Shown: positions 52,403-59,718 of the stretch, piece by piece
Numbering within the stretch: position 1 is the stretch's first letter
How the letters are laid out: every line of letters starts with the position of its first letter
Assembly (NCBI GenBank): GCA_003402745.1
Contig: QQND01000003.1
Location: forward strand, 1 to 64,000
Direction: 5' to 3'
Source: Verrucomicrobiota bacterium
Lineage (GTDB): Bacteria; Verrucomicrobiota; Verrucomicrobiia; Chthoniobacterales; Chthoniobacteraceae
Length of the DNA stretch: 64,000 nt
The notes under the pieces: model-generated
Told to the model about the DNA's origin: nothing
What the model saw: the letters and a program-made list of their open reading frames with translations, nothing else
The model's database searches: none
Translations under genes and position numbers: made by a program

Positions 52403-54037
52403 TCATTCTACACGGAGCACACGGAATGTCGTGACGTTGCTCTCGCCCTGAAGCCCCCACACCCCAGGCAGGATGGACTGCCACAACCGCTCGGCCAACG
52501 GTTTTTCCTTGGGCAAATGCCCAAGAATAGCGACCGAGTTCTCCACCGCTCGCGCACTGTCACTTGCGACAACCAGACGAACGCCGCGACGCTCAAGAAT
52601 TTCACGCGCTTCAAGCGGTTCAGTGCAGAGAAAAAACCGGGCGGAATCAACGATTCCCGAAATACCTTCATGACCGCTGCCTGCCACGGCTGGCTGGCCA
52701 GACCAGTAGGCCAAAGCCGGGGATTGCCACCAGACCGCTATGAATGGCATCCGCTCCGGCGAACGCATTCTTTCCGCCGCAAGCCGCGCGTTCAGGCGTT
52801 CTGAACGCTCCATATAGCGCCGCTCAAAAGTCTGAGCATCTGGAAAAATACGGTGTTCCCACTCTGTCACGACCGGCCACAACGAAAGCGTAAAGACAAC
52901 CCCGGCTCGCAAAGGCGTTGCTGCAATTGACAAAAGGAAAGGCAGACAAACCAAGAATACGAGGACGAAATAAGGGCTCCAGCGCACCTGCCAAAGCGTC
53001 AGCCCCGCCGTCAAAACAAGCATGGCCAGCCATCCCAAAACCACCCTCCCTTCGCGCCGCGCCAGCCAAAGTAATCCCATGGGGGCAACCCACACCAACA
53101 ACCCCGTCCACTGGCTGATAGTCTCGGGGCTAGCTACTTTCTGCAATTCACCAATCGTACTCGCCCAGCGTTTCAGCGCCTCCGTCCAAACCGAGTCCGG
53201 GCGAACAATGCGGATGCCGTCCACGAACCAGCCGCTCGCGAGGGGGAGCGCCAATGCCGCTGCCCAGTGCGCGCGCTCTCGCAGCGTCCAACTGGGCCGC
53301 CACGGCCAGAGGCCCATCAAAAAAACTGCTCCCAGCAAAACCAGCGGCTCATACAGGGACACCCACAGAGCCCCGCCCCATGCTAACCCCCCGCCCCATG
53401 CCCATCTTAGCGAGGGAGCACTCTGCATCCGCTGCTCCGCCCCCAGTGCAACCGCCAAGAGCAACAACAGCAGCGATTGATGGTCGGGACGACCAAAAAC
53501 GGTCGCGTGCACCAAGGGCGGGCTCAGCGCAGCAAGCAGCGCCACAGCCCACCAAGCGCTGGCTGAAATTCGTCCTCCACGCTGGATACCCGCGGACCAC
53601 ATTGCCAGAAAAACCGATAACAAAACTCCCAGCAAAGGAGAGATCAGCGCTCCCGCCAAATCCAAGGTGGAGTCCCGCAACACGCCAAGACGCCCGCCCT
53701 CCGGCCACAGCACCCTTAACACCCTCTCCAACGCAACGATCGCGTAATCCATTGGCGCGGTAGCATGGGAAACCACACCTTCCGGCCAATTTTCAATATC
53801 TTGATGCCGTATCACCGTTCCAAGCACTTCAGAAACTCGCAGAACACGGCTCATCCGGGAATAGCAGTCGGCATCTACGAAATAAAAACGTCCTCCCACA
53901 AGGACCTCGGTGAGATTATGAAACCTGATCCCCACCCCGAGAAGGAGAAGGCCAAAGAACGCCAACCAATAGCGGACACTGCGACGGCTGGGGCTGATTG
54001 GGCTGCCGAGTGAGGCTGCCTGGATCGGAGGGTTCAC
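52403..54037 (-). CDS. STT3/AglB-like (GT66, GT-C fold) membrane glycosyltransferase
   Basis: 544 residues from GTG 54037, overlapping the STAS stop by 4 bp. About 11 TM helices cover residues 22-390, then a soluble C-terminal domain. The motif set of oligosaccharyltransferases is visible in order: VDADCYSRM (D55, D57) in the first loop, GRPDHQS (D185, H186), ASPE (302-305) where STT3 has SVSE/TIxE, and IAVWWQSPALAYWS (436-438) where STT3 has WWDYG. Downstream GSGHEGISGI and ARFFLCTEPLEAREILER match the archaeal/bacterial pattern. It should move a lipid-linked glycan to a protein or lipid acceptor on the outer face of the inner membrane. The Asp of WWD is Gln, which is unusual. Confidence 0.72.
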   Translation of the reverse strand: MNPPIQAASLGSPISPSRRSVRYWLAFFGLLLLGVGIRFHNLTEVLVGGRFYFVDADCYSRMSRVLRVSEVLGTVIRHQDIENWPEGVVSHATAPMDYAIVALERVLRVLWPEGGRLGVLRDSTLDLAGALISPLLGVLLSVFLAMWSAGIQRGGRISASAWWAVALLAALSPPLVHATVFGRPDHQSLLLLLLAVALGAEQRMQSAPSLRWAWGGGLAWGGALWVSLYEPLVLLGAVFLMGLWPWRPSWTLRERAHWAAALALPLASGWFVDGIRIVRPDSVWTEALKRWASTIGELQKVASPETISQWTGLLVWVAPMGLLWLARREGRVVLGWLAMLVLTAGLTLWQVRWSPYFVLVFLVCLPFLLSIAATPLRAGVVFTLSLWPVVTEWEHRIFPDAQTFERRYMERSERLNARLAAERMRSPERMPFIAVWWQSPALAYWSGQPAVAGSGHEGISGIVDSARFFLCTEPLEAREILERRGVRLVVASDSARAVENSVAILGHLPKEKPLAERLWQSILPGVWGLQGESNVTTFRVLRVE

Positions 54038-54558
54038 TGCCGCGCCTGGATATCCTGGCGCAGAAACTCCAGAACATCCTTAAATTTCGTGACGTTTTCT
54101 GGCGCAACGGCAACCACCGCTTCGTGTGCCTCGAGCATGGTCGTGGCCTCGGTAAGTTTGTCCGTTGCTGCCGCCGTTAACGCGTGAGTTTGCACCTGCG
54201 TTTCAACAGCAGACCCCTGGCTGTTCTCCACTTTGAGCAACTGATCCAGCCCCAGATTACACAACAATGAATGATTGCGCTCATTCAAGTTGATGACTTG
54301 GATTTCACCCGTGCCCTCGGTCCGGATCTTGAGCGCCAAACCAGCAAGCGTCCCCATAAACGTCGAATCCATCACTGGACAAGCGTTCAGATCGATCACG
54401 AAATGACGATGCCCGCGGGCCACCATCTCTTTCGAAAACTCCTTGAGTGAAGTGCTATTTTGAAAACTGCCCTTTCCTTCCACCTTGATCCAAACGGCGC
54501 CTTGCGCAACTCCCACCTGGATGGACGAAGGGTTAGTCACAAAAAAATGGGTTACCAA
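54034..54558 (-). CDS. STAS-domain protein (anti-anti-sigma-like)
   Basis: 174 residues from a TTG at 54558 overlapping the previous stop; GTG 54540 is an alternative. The STAS fold covers about 10-110: VWIKVEGKGSFQNSTSLKEF, HFVIDLNACPVMDSTFMGTLAG and GEIQVINLNERNHSLLCNLGL. The Ser of VMDSTFMG is where anti-sigma-factor antagonists are phosphorylated. A helical tail follows (TDKLTEATTMLEAHEAVVAV). Such proteins bind an anti-sigma or kinase; none is adjacent. The gene is translationally coupled to the STT3-like gene, so the two may act in one process (inference). Confidence 0.8.
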   Translation of the reverse strand: MVTHFFVTNPSSIQVGVAQGAVWIKVEGKGSFQNSTSLKEFSKEMVARGHRHFVIDLNACPVMDSTFMGTLAGLALKIRTEGTGEIQVINLNERNHSLLCNLGLDQLLKVENSQGSAVETQVQTHALTAAATDKLTEATTMLEAHEAVVAVAPENVTKFKDVLEFLRQDIQARQ

Positions 54559-55088
54559 AGAAAGCTCTGCTGCAGCCCCACCACGCGGCCTGCCTCAATA
54601 AGAAGCACCCGCCAAGCTGTCACTGAACCGTCTTGATGGTACTCGTCGCCCTGCACCGCAAACTCCGTTCTCATAGAGCCACTCGCTTTGGAATAAACAA
54701 CGTCCTTGGTTTGCACGTGCGAACCCAGTTTCTGCTGGCGGTACTCAAACCTTACGGTCATTTCACCCTTGGTCTCGTATCGCACGCGCCAGTGAATCGT
54801 ATAAGCGTGTCCATCGCGCAGCCGCTGCTCGAAGGAGTTGATCGCTCCAAAATACCGACGTGCAGTCTCCATCTGCAACCACGTCGAATTCAAAGCACCC
54901 GTGACGGCCGGATCAATCAACACCGAAAAAACTTTTTCCACCTGAAAGTCGTCGTCCAAGGCCAGAGGAAGGGGTGCGGCCACGGGCACAGACTTCACCA
55001 CAGCAGGAGTTGCCTTGGACGCCTCCACTGCGGAATGCGGCGCAAAACAAAAACTGACAGCAGTGAGTGCAAGCGGAATGAATCTCAT
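54552..55088 (-). CDS. Secreted protein of unknown function
   Basis: 178 residues from ATG 55088 (MRFIPLALTAVSFCFAPHSA, signal peptide). The mature part starts with a short Ala/Pro-rich stretch, then VEKVFSVLIDPAVTGALNST, YAYTIHWRVRYETKGEMTV-like strands (read HAYTIHWRVRYETKGEMTV) and VTAWRVLLIEAGRVVGLQQS. It looks like a beta-rich periplasmic protein. No family recognised. It is the first gene of the operon with STAS and STT3-like genes, under a strong promoter 12 bp upstream. Confidence 0.7.
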   Translation of the reverse strand: MRFIPLALTAVSFCFAPHSAVEASKATPAVVKSVPVAAPLPLALDDDFQVEKVFSVLIDPAVTGALNSTWLQMETARRYFGAINSFEQRLRDGHAYTIHWRVRYETKGEMTVRFEYRQQKLGSHVQTKDVVYSKASGSMRTEFAVQGDEYHQDGSVTAWRVLLIEAGRVVGLQQSFLW

Positions 55089-55099
55089 CAAGAGCGCTT

Positions 55100-55129
55100 A
55101 TTGTAGGCCCGATGTGCACAGGGTGTCAA
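55100..55129 (-). promoter_or_regulatory. Strong sigma-70 promoter giving a nearly leaderless mRNA
   Basis: On the minus strand TTGACA (55129-55124), an 18-base spacer and TACAAT (55105-55100). Only 11 bases separate the -10 from the ATG at 55088, so the transcript would start about five bases before the gene. Confidence 0.6.
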
Positions 55130-55193: not shown

Positions 55194-56354
55194 TTAACGT
55201 AACGCGCGTCCAAGCGCCCCCGCATATCCCGTGAGCTCCACGTATGCCGAACCCACCTCCCGGCCTTCCCGCAGCACCCGGCAAGCCCCCTCCCAATAGG
55301 GCACTCCGCTCACCGCCCCGTCCAACTCCTGCTGGTTCGAAAGCGGCTCCAAAATCCACTCCACCAAACTCCCGGTCACCGGATCCGGCGCCTTCAGCCG
55401 CACCGGCAACGGATACTTCGCTCCACTCTCAGAACTACGCCACACCCCGTTCGTCTCCCACTGAAACTCCGAAGCCCCGTAATAAGTCGCTTTACCTTCC
55501 CGATCCACCCACGACAAAGCGGACGCCGAGTCGGTCGCCCCATCCTTTCTTCTCAAACGATACACCATGATTTCACGGCCATCCTCGAACTGGATGCCAG
55601 CCCAATCCCAGCCGGCCTGCTCCTCTGTGAGCTGACTGCTGCTAATCTCATGGTCCATCCACACCAGGCCCTCCACCGGAATCAGACGCTCCTTCACCCG
55701 CACTTCCCCCCGCGCCTGCATTCTAGGAAACGTGAGATACCAACTCGCCGCCGTTGCCGACTCGCCCTTGCGTGAAACCCCGTCTTTTCCAAAAACCACC
55801 ACCGGCTTCTGCGCCTCCAGCTTGAGCGAAAAGCCCGCCTCCGCGCGGATGGAGGCATCTAACGTAAAACGATCCTCCTGCCCGTCAACCGCACTCAAAC
55901 GGGCCTCTCCCACCCGAACAGAAAGCCCGCTGGAGGACGCGTTCGCATCCCATCCAGAACGTGCCAGCCGTTCGGTGTGAATGAAGCGACCGCTCTCCAC
56001 CTCCAAAAGAGCAGCATGAAACAGAAACACCTCATCTGATCGAAACGTTTTCGATCCCCCAGAGCCTTGCTCCCGCGGCGGCGTATTTGCCTTCCGAAAA
56101 AAAGTCGCCTGGAACCCGAACCTTTCCTTGTCCGGACCAAACAGGTGGCCCGTTAAATACCACCATTCCACCTTGAAATCGGGGTGTGAGCCATGATCCC
56201 TCGGAAACACAAACTGATACCCCGGCTGCGGCACGCGGAAACCATCCTCGGTTTCCTTCAACAGAGGCTGGGGTAAAAAATTAACGGGTGCAGCCGCCAG
56301 CGGGTATCCCCAGGCGGACGCGATGGCAAACAGAAGAGGAAGACTGATTTTCAT
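55194..56354 (-). CDS. AttH-like lipocalin-type secreted protein
   Basis: 386 residues from ATG 56354, overlapping the permease stop (ATGA). A signal peptide MKISLPLLFAIASAWGYPLA comes first. Two calycin-like halves follow: FVFPRDHGSHPDFKVEWWYLT with FGFQATFFR, then SWYLTFPRMQARGEV and GLVWMDHEISSSQL with WDWAGIQFEDGREIMVYRL. These are signatures of the AttH/CrtC (carotenoid-hydratase-like) fold. In Agrobacterium, AttH is encoded with an ABC exporter in the same order as here. The function may be binding or processing a lipophilic molecule moved by the transporter (inference). Confidence 0.85.
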   Translation of the reverse strand: MKISLPLLFAIASAWGYPLAAAPVNFLPQPLLKETEDGFRVPQPGYQFVFPRDHGSHPDFKVEWWYLTGHLFGPDKERFGFQATFFRKANTPPREQGSGGSKTFRSDEVFLFHAALLEVESGRFIHTERLARSGWDANASSSGLSVRVGEARLSAVDGQEDRFTLDASIRAEAGFSLKLEAQKPVVVFGKDGVSRKGESATAASWYLTFPRMQARGEVRVKERLIPVEGLVWMDHEISSSQLTEEQAGWDWAGIQFEDGREIMVYRLRRKDGATDSASALSWVDREGKATYYGASEFQWETNGVWRSSESGAKYPLPVRLKAPDPVTGSLVEWILEPLSNQQELDGAVSGVPYWEGACRVLREGREVGSAYVELTGYAGALGRALR

Positions 56355-59041
56355 TTCGTAACGTCCGAGGGAAGCTCCGCGCCATAGCGACCCACAACCC
56401 ATGCCACAGCTGCCCCGGAGACAGGAACAACCACCCCCAGCAACAACAAGGCACGCAGGGGAATCGCCGGCTGCAGCGTCCAGCCAAAAGTCTGTTTGTT
56501 AATCACGAAAATCAAGAGCGCCCCGAGCCCGAGACTGCTTATCAATCCTCCCGCAGTCCCTCCCAAAGCCAGAATTGCACCCTCCCAAGCCGCGACTCCT
56601 GCAATACCCGTCCTCGACATTCCCAGCGCTCTGAGGGTGGTGAGTTCAGCTCGCCGCTCGGCTAAAATGCTCGCCAGCGTAATTCCCAGCCCCGCCAGAG
56701 CCACGGCCACACCAATGGCTTCCAGCGCGTACGTGATCGCAAAAGTCTGCCTGAAAATCCGCATCACTTCACCTCGCAAATGCACGTTCGTGAACACTGC
56801 AAGCCCCGGGTGACTGGCCCGCATTTGAGCCCTCACCGCCTCCGGATCTTCGCCGGCCTTCAAAACCAAGGAAAGCGAGCTCACCGCGCTGGTCCCAAAC
56901 CACTCCTGAAGATGCCCCCGCTCCACCATCACAATTCCCTGGTCGTCTCCGTAATCCGTGTAGATGCCCTCGATTTCAAGCGCCCGCTCGCCCTTCGGAG
57001 TCGGCAGACGGATTCGTGCGCCGCGCCCGACCCGAAAGCGTTCCGCAAAAGACTCGCTTACCACACAACGGCCCTCATTTTGTTTACGGTCAAACACCTC
57101 CGCAGAAAGAGGCTCCTTGAGCCAGCTGAACTGACGGCGACGTTGGTAAAAATCAAGACTGGTCCCCGCGACCCGAATGCTCCCGCCTCCGAACTCAACC
57201 GGTACAAGTAACATTGCGTCCCAGTCCGAAACGGCGGGATCGCTTGTAATCTTCCGCCAGCTCGAGGATGAAATTCTGTTGTATGCCGTGGCGGCCTGAT
57301 TCGAGTCGCTTGTCAGGTAGACGTCAGCCTGCAGAAGGTGGGCGATCCATTCGCTAACGCTGCGCTCAAAACTACCCACAAGCACGGACATCCCGCCTGT
57401 CATCGAAACAGCACACAGCAACCCAGCTGCCGCCCACCTGTGGCGACTCGTCGGCACCCGCAAGTGGCTTTGAGCAAGTTGGCGCGGTGCTGAATGCCGA
57501 GAAAATCGCGCAGCTAGCCAGGCCACCAAACGCAACGAATCTCCAGCGAGAATTCCAGCTCCAATCACCCCAAAAAACGCGCTCAAATAGCCTCCGAGCG
57601 CGAACCTGGATCCTCCCGAAAACGTCAGCGGCGAACAAAACGCCAAGCCCACAGCTCCAAATAACAACCCGCACCCCACCCACGTGCGTAACGCTGAGTC
57701 CGCTTCCGCCCCCCCTGGCCCCGCTCCCTGCGCCCAGAGCTGGGCGGGCGGCGTGGCCGCCGCACGCTTCGCTGGGAACCAGCCCGCCAAAACACTGCAC
57801 CCCACCGCCAGTAAAAACGCCCCGGCGGCCTCCCCCGGGTGCAGGCCCGCCGCCTCCGTGTTATTTGCGTAATACAAAGAATTCACCGTTTGAGATACCG
57901 CCCGCACCGTTCCCTGAGCCAGCGCCCAGCCCCCCAGCACACCCACCGCACCTCCAGCCACGCCCAGCAAAGCCGCCTCCCACAACCAAGCCCGCCTCAC
58001 CTCCGACCCCCGCACCCCAAGCGCTCGTAGCACCGCAATTTCACTCCGCCTCCGAACCACAGCAGCGTCCAGCGCCTGGAAAATCAGATACAGACCCACC
58101 AAAAGTGCAAGGAGCGATAGAATCGTCAGATTCAGCCGAAACCCCCTCGTCATTAATTCCGCAGCAGCCAAGCGCGATTCCCCAGTCCTAACCGACCCAG
58201 CCTCACCCACCGCCGCCCGCAGCCTCGTCAACAACGCGTCACGGCTCGCCCCCTGCCGAGCCCCCTTGGGAAAAAGACACTCAATCCGGTCAAGCAGCCC
58301 CACTTTTCCAGAAAGCTCCTGCAGCGCCGGAAGGTCCATCACCAGCAGACCCGCCGGAGACTCCGGTTGGTCCGAGCGGCCGGGAATAATCCCCGCAATC
58401 TCAAGGGATACAGGCTGATCGTTCACCACTAAGACCAGCAAAGAGCCCACCCTCAGCCCCTCCTTCGCCGCCAGTTTCCCCGAACAATACACCGCATTTC
58501 GCCGCCCCAAGAGCCTGCCAAGCGCCCCCCCTCCGTTCTGCTCATCAGCTTGTGAAGCTTCCTCAAACCAGCGCCTCTCCATCTTCTGGTCCGCCGCGAA
58601 ATTCTGCAACGCGACCAGGTCGACGCCTATCAGCGTAAAGCTTCCTCTCGCTCCAATCCCTCCGTCCTCTCCGCTGCGCGGCGGAGCGCAAACAACTTCC
58701 ACGATGGGAATGAGCTCCATACCCGCAGAAATATCGGTCCCCTTGACTGCCATGTTCTGACGTAACGTCTCCAAAACCGAATCTGGGAGCAGCCCGGCTG
58801 GCGCCCCGATCGTAGCGTCCGCCTGCGTGGAAAGAACGCTGGCGAAGTTCGTGAAGCTGGCCACTGCGGCTCTGTTGGCCAGGCGAATCGACAGAAAAAC
58901 AGCCACCCCCAGAGAAAGCAAAAGCACCAAAAGAAGGGCCCGCAGCGGCTGCCCCCGCCAGTGGCGCAGAGTAAACTGGCGCAAAAGCACTCCACTCACA
59001 CGCGCCGTTCCTCCCCGGTCTTCGACGGGCTTTAAATTCAC
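56351..59041 (-). CDS. FtsX-type ABC transporter permease (LolC/E- or AttF/G-like, fused)
   Basis: About 896 residues from GTG 59041, which overlaps the ATPase stop (GTGA); a longer in-frame ORF upstream is antisense-like and rejected. One N-terminal TM helix (about 25-45) is followed by a large periplasmic domain. Two FtsX blocks are visible: AAVVRRRSEIAVLRALGVRG with following TM helices at about 320-500, and LASILAERRAELTTLRALGM at about 790-890. Between them is a second periplasmic domain. The double FtsX layout makes one chain do the work of two permeases. It should pull lipids or lipoproteins out of the inner membrane toward AttH-like or outer-membrane acceptors. Confidence 0.85.
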   Translation of the reverse strand: MNLKPVEDRGGTARVSGVLLRQFTLRHWRGQPLRALLLVLLLSLGVAVFLSIRLANRAAVASFTNFASVLSTQADATIGAPAGLLPDSVLETLRQNMAVKGTDISAGMELIPIVEVVCAPPRSGEDGGIGARGSFTLIGVDLVALQNFAADQKMERRWFEEASQADEQNGGGALGRLLGRRNAVYCSGKLAAKEGLRVGSLLVLVVNDQPVSLEIAGIIPGRSDQPESPAGLLVMDLPALQELSGKVGLLDRIECLFPKGARQGASRDALLTRLRAAVGEAGSVRTGESRLAAAELMTRGFRLNLTILSLLALLVGLYLIFQALDAAVVRRRSEIAVLRALGVRGSEVRRAWLWEAALLGVAGGAVGVLGGWALAQGTVRAVSQTVNSLYYANNTEAAGLHPGEAAGAFLLAVGCSVLAGWFPAKRAAATPPAQLWAQGAGPGGAEADSALRTWVGCGLLFGAVGLAFCSPLTFSGGSRFALGGYLSAFFGVIGAGILAGDSLRLVAWLAARFSRHSAPRQLAQSHLRVPTSRHRWAAAGLLCAVSMTGGMSVLVGSFERSVSEWIAHLLQADVYLTSDSNQAATAYNRISSSSWRKITSDPAVSDWDAMLLVPVEFGGGSIRVAGTSLDFYQRRRQFSWLKEPLSAEVFDRKQNEGRCVVSESFAERFRVGRGARIRLPTPKGERALEIEGIYTDYGDDQGIVMVERGHLQEWFGTSAVSSLSLVLKAGEDPEAVRAQMRASHPGLAVFTNVHLRGEVMRIFRQTFAITYALEAIGVAVALAGLGITLASILAERRAELTTLRALGMSRTGIAGVAAWEGAILALGGTAGGLISSLGLGALLIFVINKQTFGWTLQPAIPLRALLLLGVVVPVSGAAVAWVVGRYGAELPSDVTK

Positions 59042-59718
59042 CCGCGCACCTCCTCCAATACCCCGTCCCTCATTCGCACCTCGCGCTGGCAAATCCGCGC
59101 CGCCTCCTCGCTGTGTGTCACAAGAACCAACGCCGTCTCCATCTCCCCACTCAACTCCTGCAGCAGTTCCAGAATGTTGGCGCTGTTCACCGAATCTAAG
59201 TTGCCCGTGGGTTCGTCGGCCAGAATCACACGGGGCGAATGCACCAGCGCACGCGCAATCGCACACCGCTGCATCTCCCCGCCGGAAAGCCGAGACGGTA
59301 GCGCCTCCGCCCGATGCCCCATCTTCACTCGCTCCAAAAGAGACCCCGCACGTTCCCGGCGCTGTGCGGGCGCAACCCCCAGCAACAAAAGTGGAAACTC
59401 CACATTCTCACGCACGCTAAGCGTCGGCAGCAGATGGAAAAACTGAAAGACATTGCCGATCTTGCGGCGCCGTAACATCGCCAACTCCTCCCCGTCGATG
59501 CGCGTAAGGTCTTCGCCACCAATCAGCACGGAGCCGCTGTCCGGCCGATCAATCCCTCCTAAACAATTGAGAAGCGTCGTCTTACCACTCCCAGAAGGAC
59601 CCGTGAGCGCAAGCCTCTCCCCTGAAAAAAGCCGCAGTGAGACATCCCGCAGCACAGGACTCAGATCGTATTTCCGGCTCACAGACCGACATTCTAAGAC
59701 GGGAGCAGAATTGTACAC
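59038..59718 (-). CDS. LolD-like ABC transporter ATPase
   Basis: 226 residues from GTG 59718. Walker A GPSGSGKTT (about 40-48), IGNVFQFFHLLPTLSV as the Q-loop region, signature RLSGGEMQRCAIARAL, Walker B VILADEPTGNLDS and H-loop VTHSEEAA are all present. The set is typical of the LolD/MacB/AttE group that pairs with FtsX permeases. It powers the permease encoded next and is overlapped by it at the GTGA. First gene of the operon. Confidence 0.92.
   Translation of the reverse strand: MYNSAPVLECRSVSRKYDLSPVLRDVSLRLFSGERLALTGPSGSGKTTLLNCLGGIDRPDSGSVLIGGEDLTRIDGEELAMLRRRKIGNVFQFFHLLPTLSVRENVEFPLLLLGVAPAQRRERAGSLLERVKMGHRAEALPSRLSGGEMQRCAIARALVHSPRVILADEPTGNLDSVNSANILELLQELSGEMETALVLVTHSEEAARICQREVRMRDGVLEEVRG

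Follow-up and report, generated by a model that had tools for sequence, protein, structure and literature searches.

The window analysed here comprises 64,000 nucleotides (positions 1 to 64,000, forward strand) of contig QQND01000003.1 from GCA_003402745.1, a 69% complete genome of the Verrucomicrobiota (order Chthoniobacterales, family Chthoniobacteraceae). On its reverse strand lies a run of three genes encoding a secreted protein, a STAS-domain protein and an STT3-like GT-C glycosyltransferase, preceded by a candidate promoter recognised by its match to the consensus (Table 1). As the preliminary description of this locus had noted, neighbouring genes of the run overlap: the transferase gene meets the STAS gene at a GTGA junction, and the STAS ORF in turn overlaps that of the secreted protein. 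The transferase gene is an intact ORF of 544 codons. It does not represent a chance pattern, because 39 of the 40 family genomes, counting that of the window, encode the protein, and its DAD Asp residues, DH and WW are near-invariant among 53 homologues.

Table 1. Features of the transferase locus and residues of the predicted active site (positions in the window)
Feature	Position	Strand	Remarks
STT3-like GT-C glycosyltransferase gene	52403..54037	-	544 aa, GTG start, uninterrupted ORF
WWQ, residues 436-438, WWD position, then S439-P440	52724..52732	-	W437 and P440 53/53; aligned with WWD of 3vgp
R352	52982..52984	-	53/53; equivalent to AfAglB phosphate-site Arg426
TIGE, residues 294-297, TIXE motif of EL5	53147..53158	-	E297 53/53; equivalent to AfAglB TIAE, Glu360
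DHQ, residues 185-187, second DXD motif	53477..53485	-	D185 52/52, H186 51/52, Q187 52/52
H91	53765..53767	-	52/52; equivalent to AfAglB phosphate-site His81
DAD, residues 55-57, first DXD motif	53867..53875	-	D55 and D57 52/52; D57 equivalent to AfAglB Asp47
STAS-domain protein gene	54034..54558	-	Pfam STAS E 4.5e-9; neighbour of transferase in window's genus only
Secreted protein gene, family unknown, paired with STAS gene	54552..55091	-	ORF overlaps STAS ORF
Sigma-70-like promoter, TTGACA-18-TACAAT	55100..55129	-	11/12; upstream of three-gene run; consensus match only

A structural model of the transferase was generated with AlphaFold2 from a 23-member alignment (pLDDT 90.5, pTM 0.90). In the model, residues 21 to approximately 400 form a series of long helices, and the chain ends in a small alpha/beta domain of approximately 120 residues. 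When the model was compared with the PDB using Foldseek, the best 19 matches were eukaryotic STT3, archaeal AglB and bacterial PglB (E 7.8e-13 to 3e-7, TM up to 0.71), followed by DPY19 (4.7e-7), ArnT (2.7e-4) and PMT4 (8.5e-3). Profile comparisons agreed with this ranking, with the family scoring E 2.2e-13 against OST-type proteins and E 8.7e-8 against ArnT-like proteins. At the sequence level the relevant matches fell in the C-terminal domain of each of two AglB proteins; the match to 3vgp (AglB C-terminal domain) had an E-value of 7.4e-4 in a single-sequence search and improved to 2.8e-5 in a profile search. Searched as a single sequence against Pfam and NCBIfam, the protein returned sub-threshold matches only. 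It falls below the curated cut-off of Pfam STT3 (PF02516), which is matched by one of 23 homologues (E 1.3e-4), and nine of the 23 weakly match Pfam AglB_core. Together, the predicted fold and the sequence profiles support the earlier placement of the window protein among the GT-C enzymes of the STT3/GT66 superfamily, nearer to oligosaccharyltransferases than to ArnT or PMT. A search of the literature turned up no publication that deals with the family.

Motif conservation was counted over 53 homologues, at each position among the rows that cover it, and equivalences to residues of characterised enzymes were taken from alignments at 13-25% identity. The AfAglB row of the motif alignment lacks one His after TIAEVYPFFFT, which does not affect the motifs quoted here. 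Residues D55, D57, H91, D185, Q187, E297, R352, W437, P440 and H456 were invariant wherever covered. The DAD, DH and WW- motifs reported previously were recovered in the same order (residues 55-57, 185-186 and 436-438), with the Asp residues of DAD, the DH and the WW pair invariant or nearly so, whereas the ASPE string (residues 302-305), which had been counted as an STT3 motif, is unconserved and was dropped as a candidate TIXE motif; it is TIGE, just upstream, that aligns with TIAE of AfAglB and carries the invariant Glu.

In AfAglB, Asp47, Asp161 and His163 are the direct ligands of the metal, and His81 and Arg426 belong to the phosphate site (PMC8342417). In the alignment D185 corresponds to Asp161 and Q187 to His163, such that the family keeps two of the three direct protein ligands of the metal and has an invariant glutamine at the position of the third. 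The second metal motif thus reads D-H-Q, compared to D-H-H in AfAglB and D-T-D in PglB, and the forms of this motif that supply two metal ligands (DXD, DXH, DXE) are not found in the family. This glutamine is a change that the preliminary description had missed. No DGGK string was found in the window transferase, and DK/MI was not recognised there, the region being too diverged for a clear assignment.

Studied oligosaccharyltransferases read the N-X-S/T sequon via WWDYG. The corresponding region of the family was aligned by profiles to 3vgp and 3vu0, because plain MAFFT with AfAglB misplaced it, and residue 438 aligns with the WWD aspartate of AfAglB (Asp552). Among the 53 homologues this residue is Leu in 24, Gln in eight, Ile in five, Phe in five, His in four, Val in two and other residues in the remainder, and in none of the 53 is it Asp or Glu. 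The signature of the site is WW-x-[SC]-P, with Thr at the fourth position in two members and YW in place of WW in one. An ungapped alternative, aligned against another Verrucomicrobiota protein (L059, described below), sets W437 at the Asp site and again places no acid there. The earlier reading of Gln at the WWD Asp therefore stands insofar as WWQ is present and the acid is absent; since position 438 is variable, Gln as a meaningful substitution was dropped, and the change is a loss of Asp. In addition, the C-terminal domain of the window transferase is reduced to the approximately 120 residues seen in the model. The Ser/Thr pocket is formed by WWDYG and DK/MI (PMC8342417), and because the WWDYG Asp of this pocket has been lost, the acceptor rule is likely to have changed; the earlier suggestion of a different acceptor is a fair inference from the loss of the acid throughout the homologues.

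L059, from another Verrucomicrobiota family, provides a bridge to accepted STT3 proteins: it clears the cut-off of Pfam STT3, aligns with AfAglB along most of its sequence (E 1.4e-14), and is 25% identical to the window's family over residues 26-197, with GRPDH and neighbouring residues in common. L059 has no WWD and carries SWPYG instead, and other STT3-like proteins of the phylum (L058, L060, L084) have degenerate forms (WGYG, WWDNG), indicating that WWD erosion is not unique to the window's family. Two further Verrucomicrobiota membrane proteins of approximately 705 residues (L035:686-2800 (-) and L036:1-2121 (-)) contain DND...HW...RPDH and no WW pair. The L035 protein has no Pfam match, and profile similarity to the window's family is weak; these two proteins are perhaps another undescribed GT-C branch.

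The Chthoniobacterales are soil and freshwater bacteria. The transferase was found in 135 of 197 genomes of the order, usually as a single copy; it was present in 79 of the 112 genomes of good quality and in 32 of 45 genera. A sample of the phylum (n=388) yielded five clear members, four of them in the order (the window's included) and one elsewhere in the class, together with three weak matches. In a tree of 52 homologues and one STT3 the number of label changes was the least possible, and therefore inheritance has been mainly vertical through most of this one order, with the gene rare outside it.

Comparison with characterised enzymes delimits what has been kept and what has been lost. The family has the fold of AfAglB (Archaeoglobus fulgidus, GT66; 3waj, 5gmy, 7e9s) and keeps the equivalents of its Asp47, Asp161, His162, TIXE Glu360, Arg426 and His81, but differs in having Gln for His163, no Asp at WWD552 and a far smaller C-terminal domain, at approximately 13% identity. 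With PglB (bacterial GT66; 3rce, 5ogl) it has in common the GT-C fold and the WW pair, but not the DTD second motif or WWDYG. Eukaryotic STT3 (OST complexes 8age, 6s7o) gave the best fold match (TM 0.69-0.71); relative to it the same motifs are lost, and no complex partners are known for the window family. DPY19 C-mannosyltransferase (7zlh) is the next-best fold. Both it and the window family depart from the OST metal site, but the window family retains the OST D/D/E residues and DPY19 has a lower fold score than the OSTs. ArnT and PMT (5ezm, 9i5k) belong to the same GT-C superfamily, with much weaker fold and profile scores.

We consider it rather probable that the window protein is an STT3-derived transferase that takes a sugar from a polyprenyl carrier and attaches it to an acceptor other than the sequon, probably a protein. 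Transfer to protein by a different rule is favoured because the contact to the +2 Ser/Thr has been lost, along with one metal ligand, while D57, E297, H91 and R352 are kept. Extrapolating from the conserved residues, the most likely site of action would be the periplasmic side of the membrane, and the donor would be a sugar linked to polyprenyl phosphate or pyrophosphate and held by H91 and R352; retention of this pair suggests that the phosphate side is probably intact. D57 and D185, perhaps with Q187, would hold a divalent metal, and D57 together with E297 would activate the acceptor nucleophile; as both carboxylates are kept, the part of OST chemistry that activates the acceptor has probably been preserved as well. 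The N-X-S/T sequon is probably not used via the +2 contact, because the Asp is lost and the C-terminal domain reduced. The acceptor would thus probably be a protein recognised by another or looser rule, with a lipid or glycan less probable. Because one direct metal ligand is replaced, metal dependence may have been lost, by analogy with DPY19, which is metal independent (PMC10154233) and so indicates that an enzyme of the GT-C fold can remain active with an altered metal site.

In the OST mechanism, carboxylates of the D57 and TIXE-Glu type are linked to the step in which the Asn amide is activated. Both being invariant here, the family could be a true N-oligosaccharyltransferase acting on Asn, perhaps within N-X-S/T, with the +2 residue recognised by other contacts, and Verrucomicrobiota STT3-like proteins that lie over the Pfam cut-off likewise have SWPYG, WGYG or WWDNG. 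We regard this as unlikely, given the missing acid at the WWD position in all homologues, the lack of a DGGK string or recognisable DK/MI in the window protein, and the Gln in place of a metal ligand. The same Gln would suit an ArnT/PMT/DPY19-type enzyme that has lost full metal dependence and transfers a monosaccharide from polyprenyl phosphate onto a lipid, lipid A, a cell-wall glycan or a protein side chain. Such a reading draws on the fold match to metal-independent DPY19 (PMC10154233) and on the general relatedness of GT-C profiles, including that to ArnT-like proteins; it is nevertheless improbable, as STT3 leads ArnT, PMT and DPY19 in fold and profile scores and the two Asp and the TIXE Glu are kept. 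Least probable of all is a catalytically dead relative that serves as a structural element or scaffold: loss of the WWD Asp and of one metal ligand would fit, but the order shows no variation in the catalytic Asp, the TIXE Glu, the Arg and the His.

It had also been proposed that a STAS switch controls the transferase, and the secreted protein could then be a partner or substrate in a STAS-switched glycosylation operon. Within the window's genus the arrangement agrees with this, since the three genes overlap or abut behind one promoter-like site and stand in a row in 11 of 12 genomes. The linkage, however, is confined to that genus, and STAS control was therefore dropped. The STAS-secreted pair is present in 38 of the 40 family genomes, and in the loci read from other genera its members adjoin each other with the transferase elsewhere; grpE and dnaJ come after the pair in nine of the 12 pair loci read, and in seven a GAF-SpoIIE phosphatase gene separates them from it. 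One genome of the family (G004) has the pair with no transferase detected, and we judge an operon of this kind very improbable. The pair together with the SpoIIE phosphatase, grpE and dnaJ is probably a partner-switching stress module, in which the secreted member is unexplained. It looks as though the transferase came to lie beside this module in one lineage, which fits the arrangements in G004 and in a genome of the window's genus (G010) that has no transferase beside the pair.

Returning to the preferred reading of an STT3-derived transferase with a non-sequon acceptor, we tentatively suggest that the family might form a branch of the OST superfamily that is inherited vertically throughout the order, has kept the catalytic Asp/Glu/Arg/His set, no longer reads the sequon and has one metal ligand fewer. 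It might then serve a glycosylation of the envelope or of proteins that is as yet undescribed and follows a novel acceptor rule. A largely single-copy relative without the WWD Asp in a bacterial order offers a natural test of the residues that determine acceptor choice. The glycosylation step to which it points is overlooked by current family models, under whose cut-offs its members score.

None of the genes beside that of the transferase was recognisable as a sugar-lipid or flippase gene. One O-antigen ligase-like gene was found in the window's genome, which argues neither for nor against a partner pathway. In loci of other genera (L004, L047-L049, L052, L056, L057) the transferase gene precedes an FAD disulfide reductase gene and a pair of bactofilin genes, and in several it lies opposite gyrB/gyrA; these neighbours point to no clear pathway and were dropped as a clue to one. 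Upstream in the window (55194-59718), genes for a CrtC-type lipocalin, an FtsX permease and an ABC ATPase stand in a row, which we take to resemble an Att-like export set.
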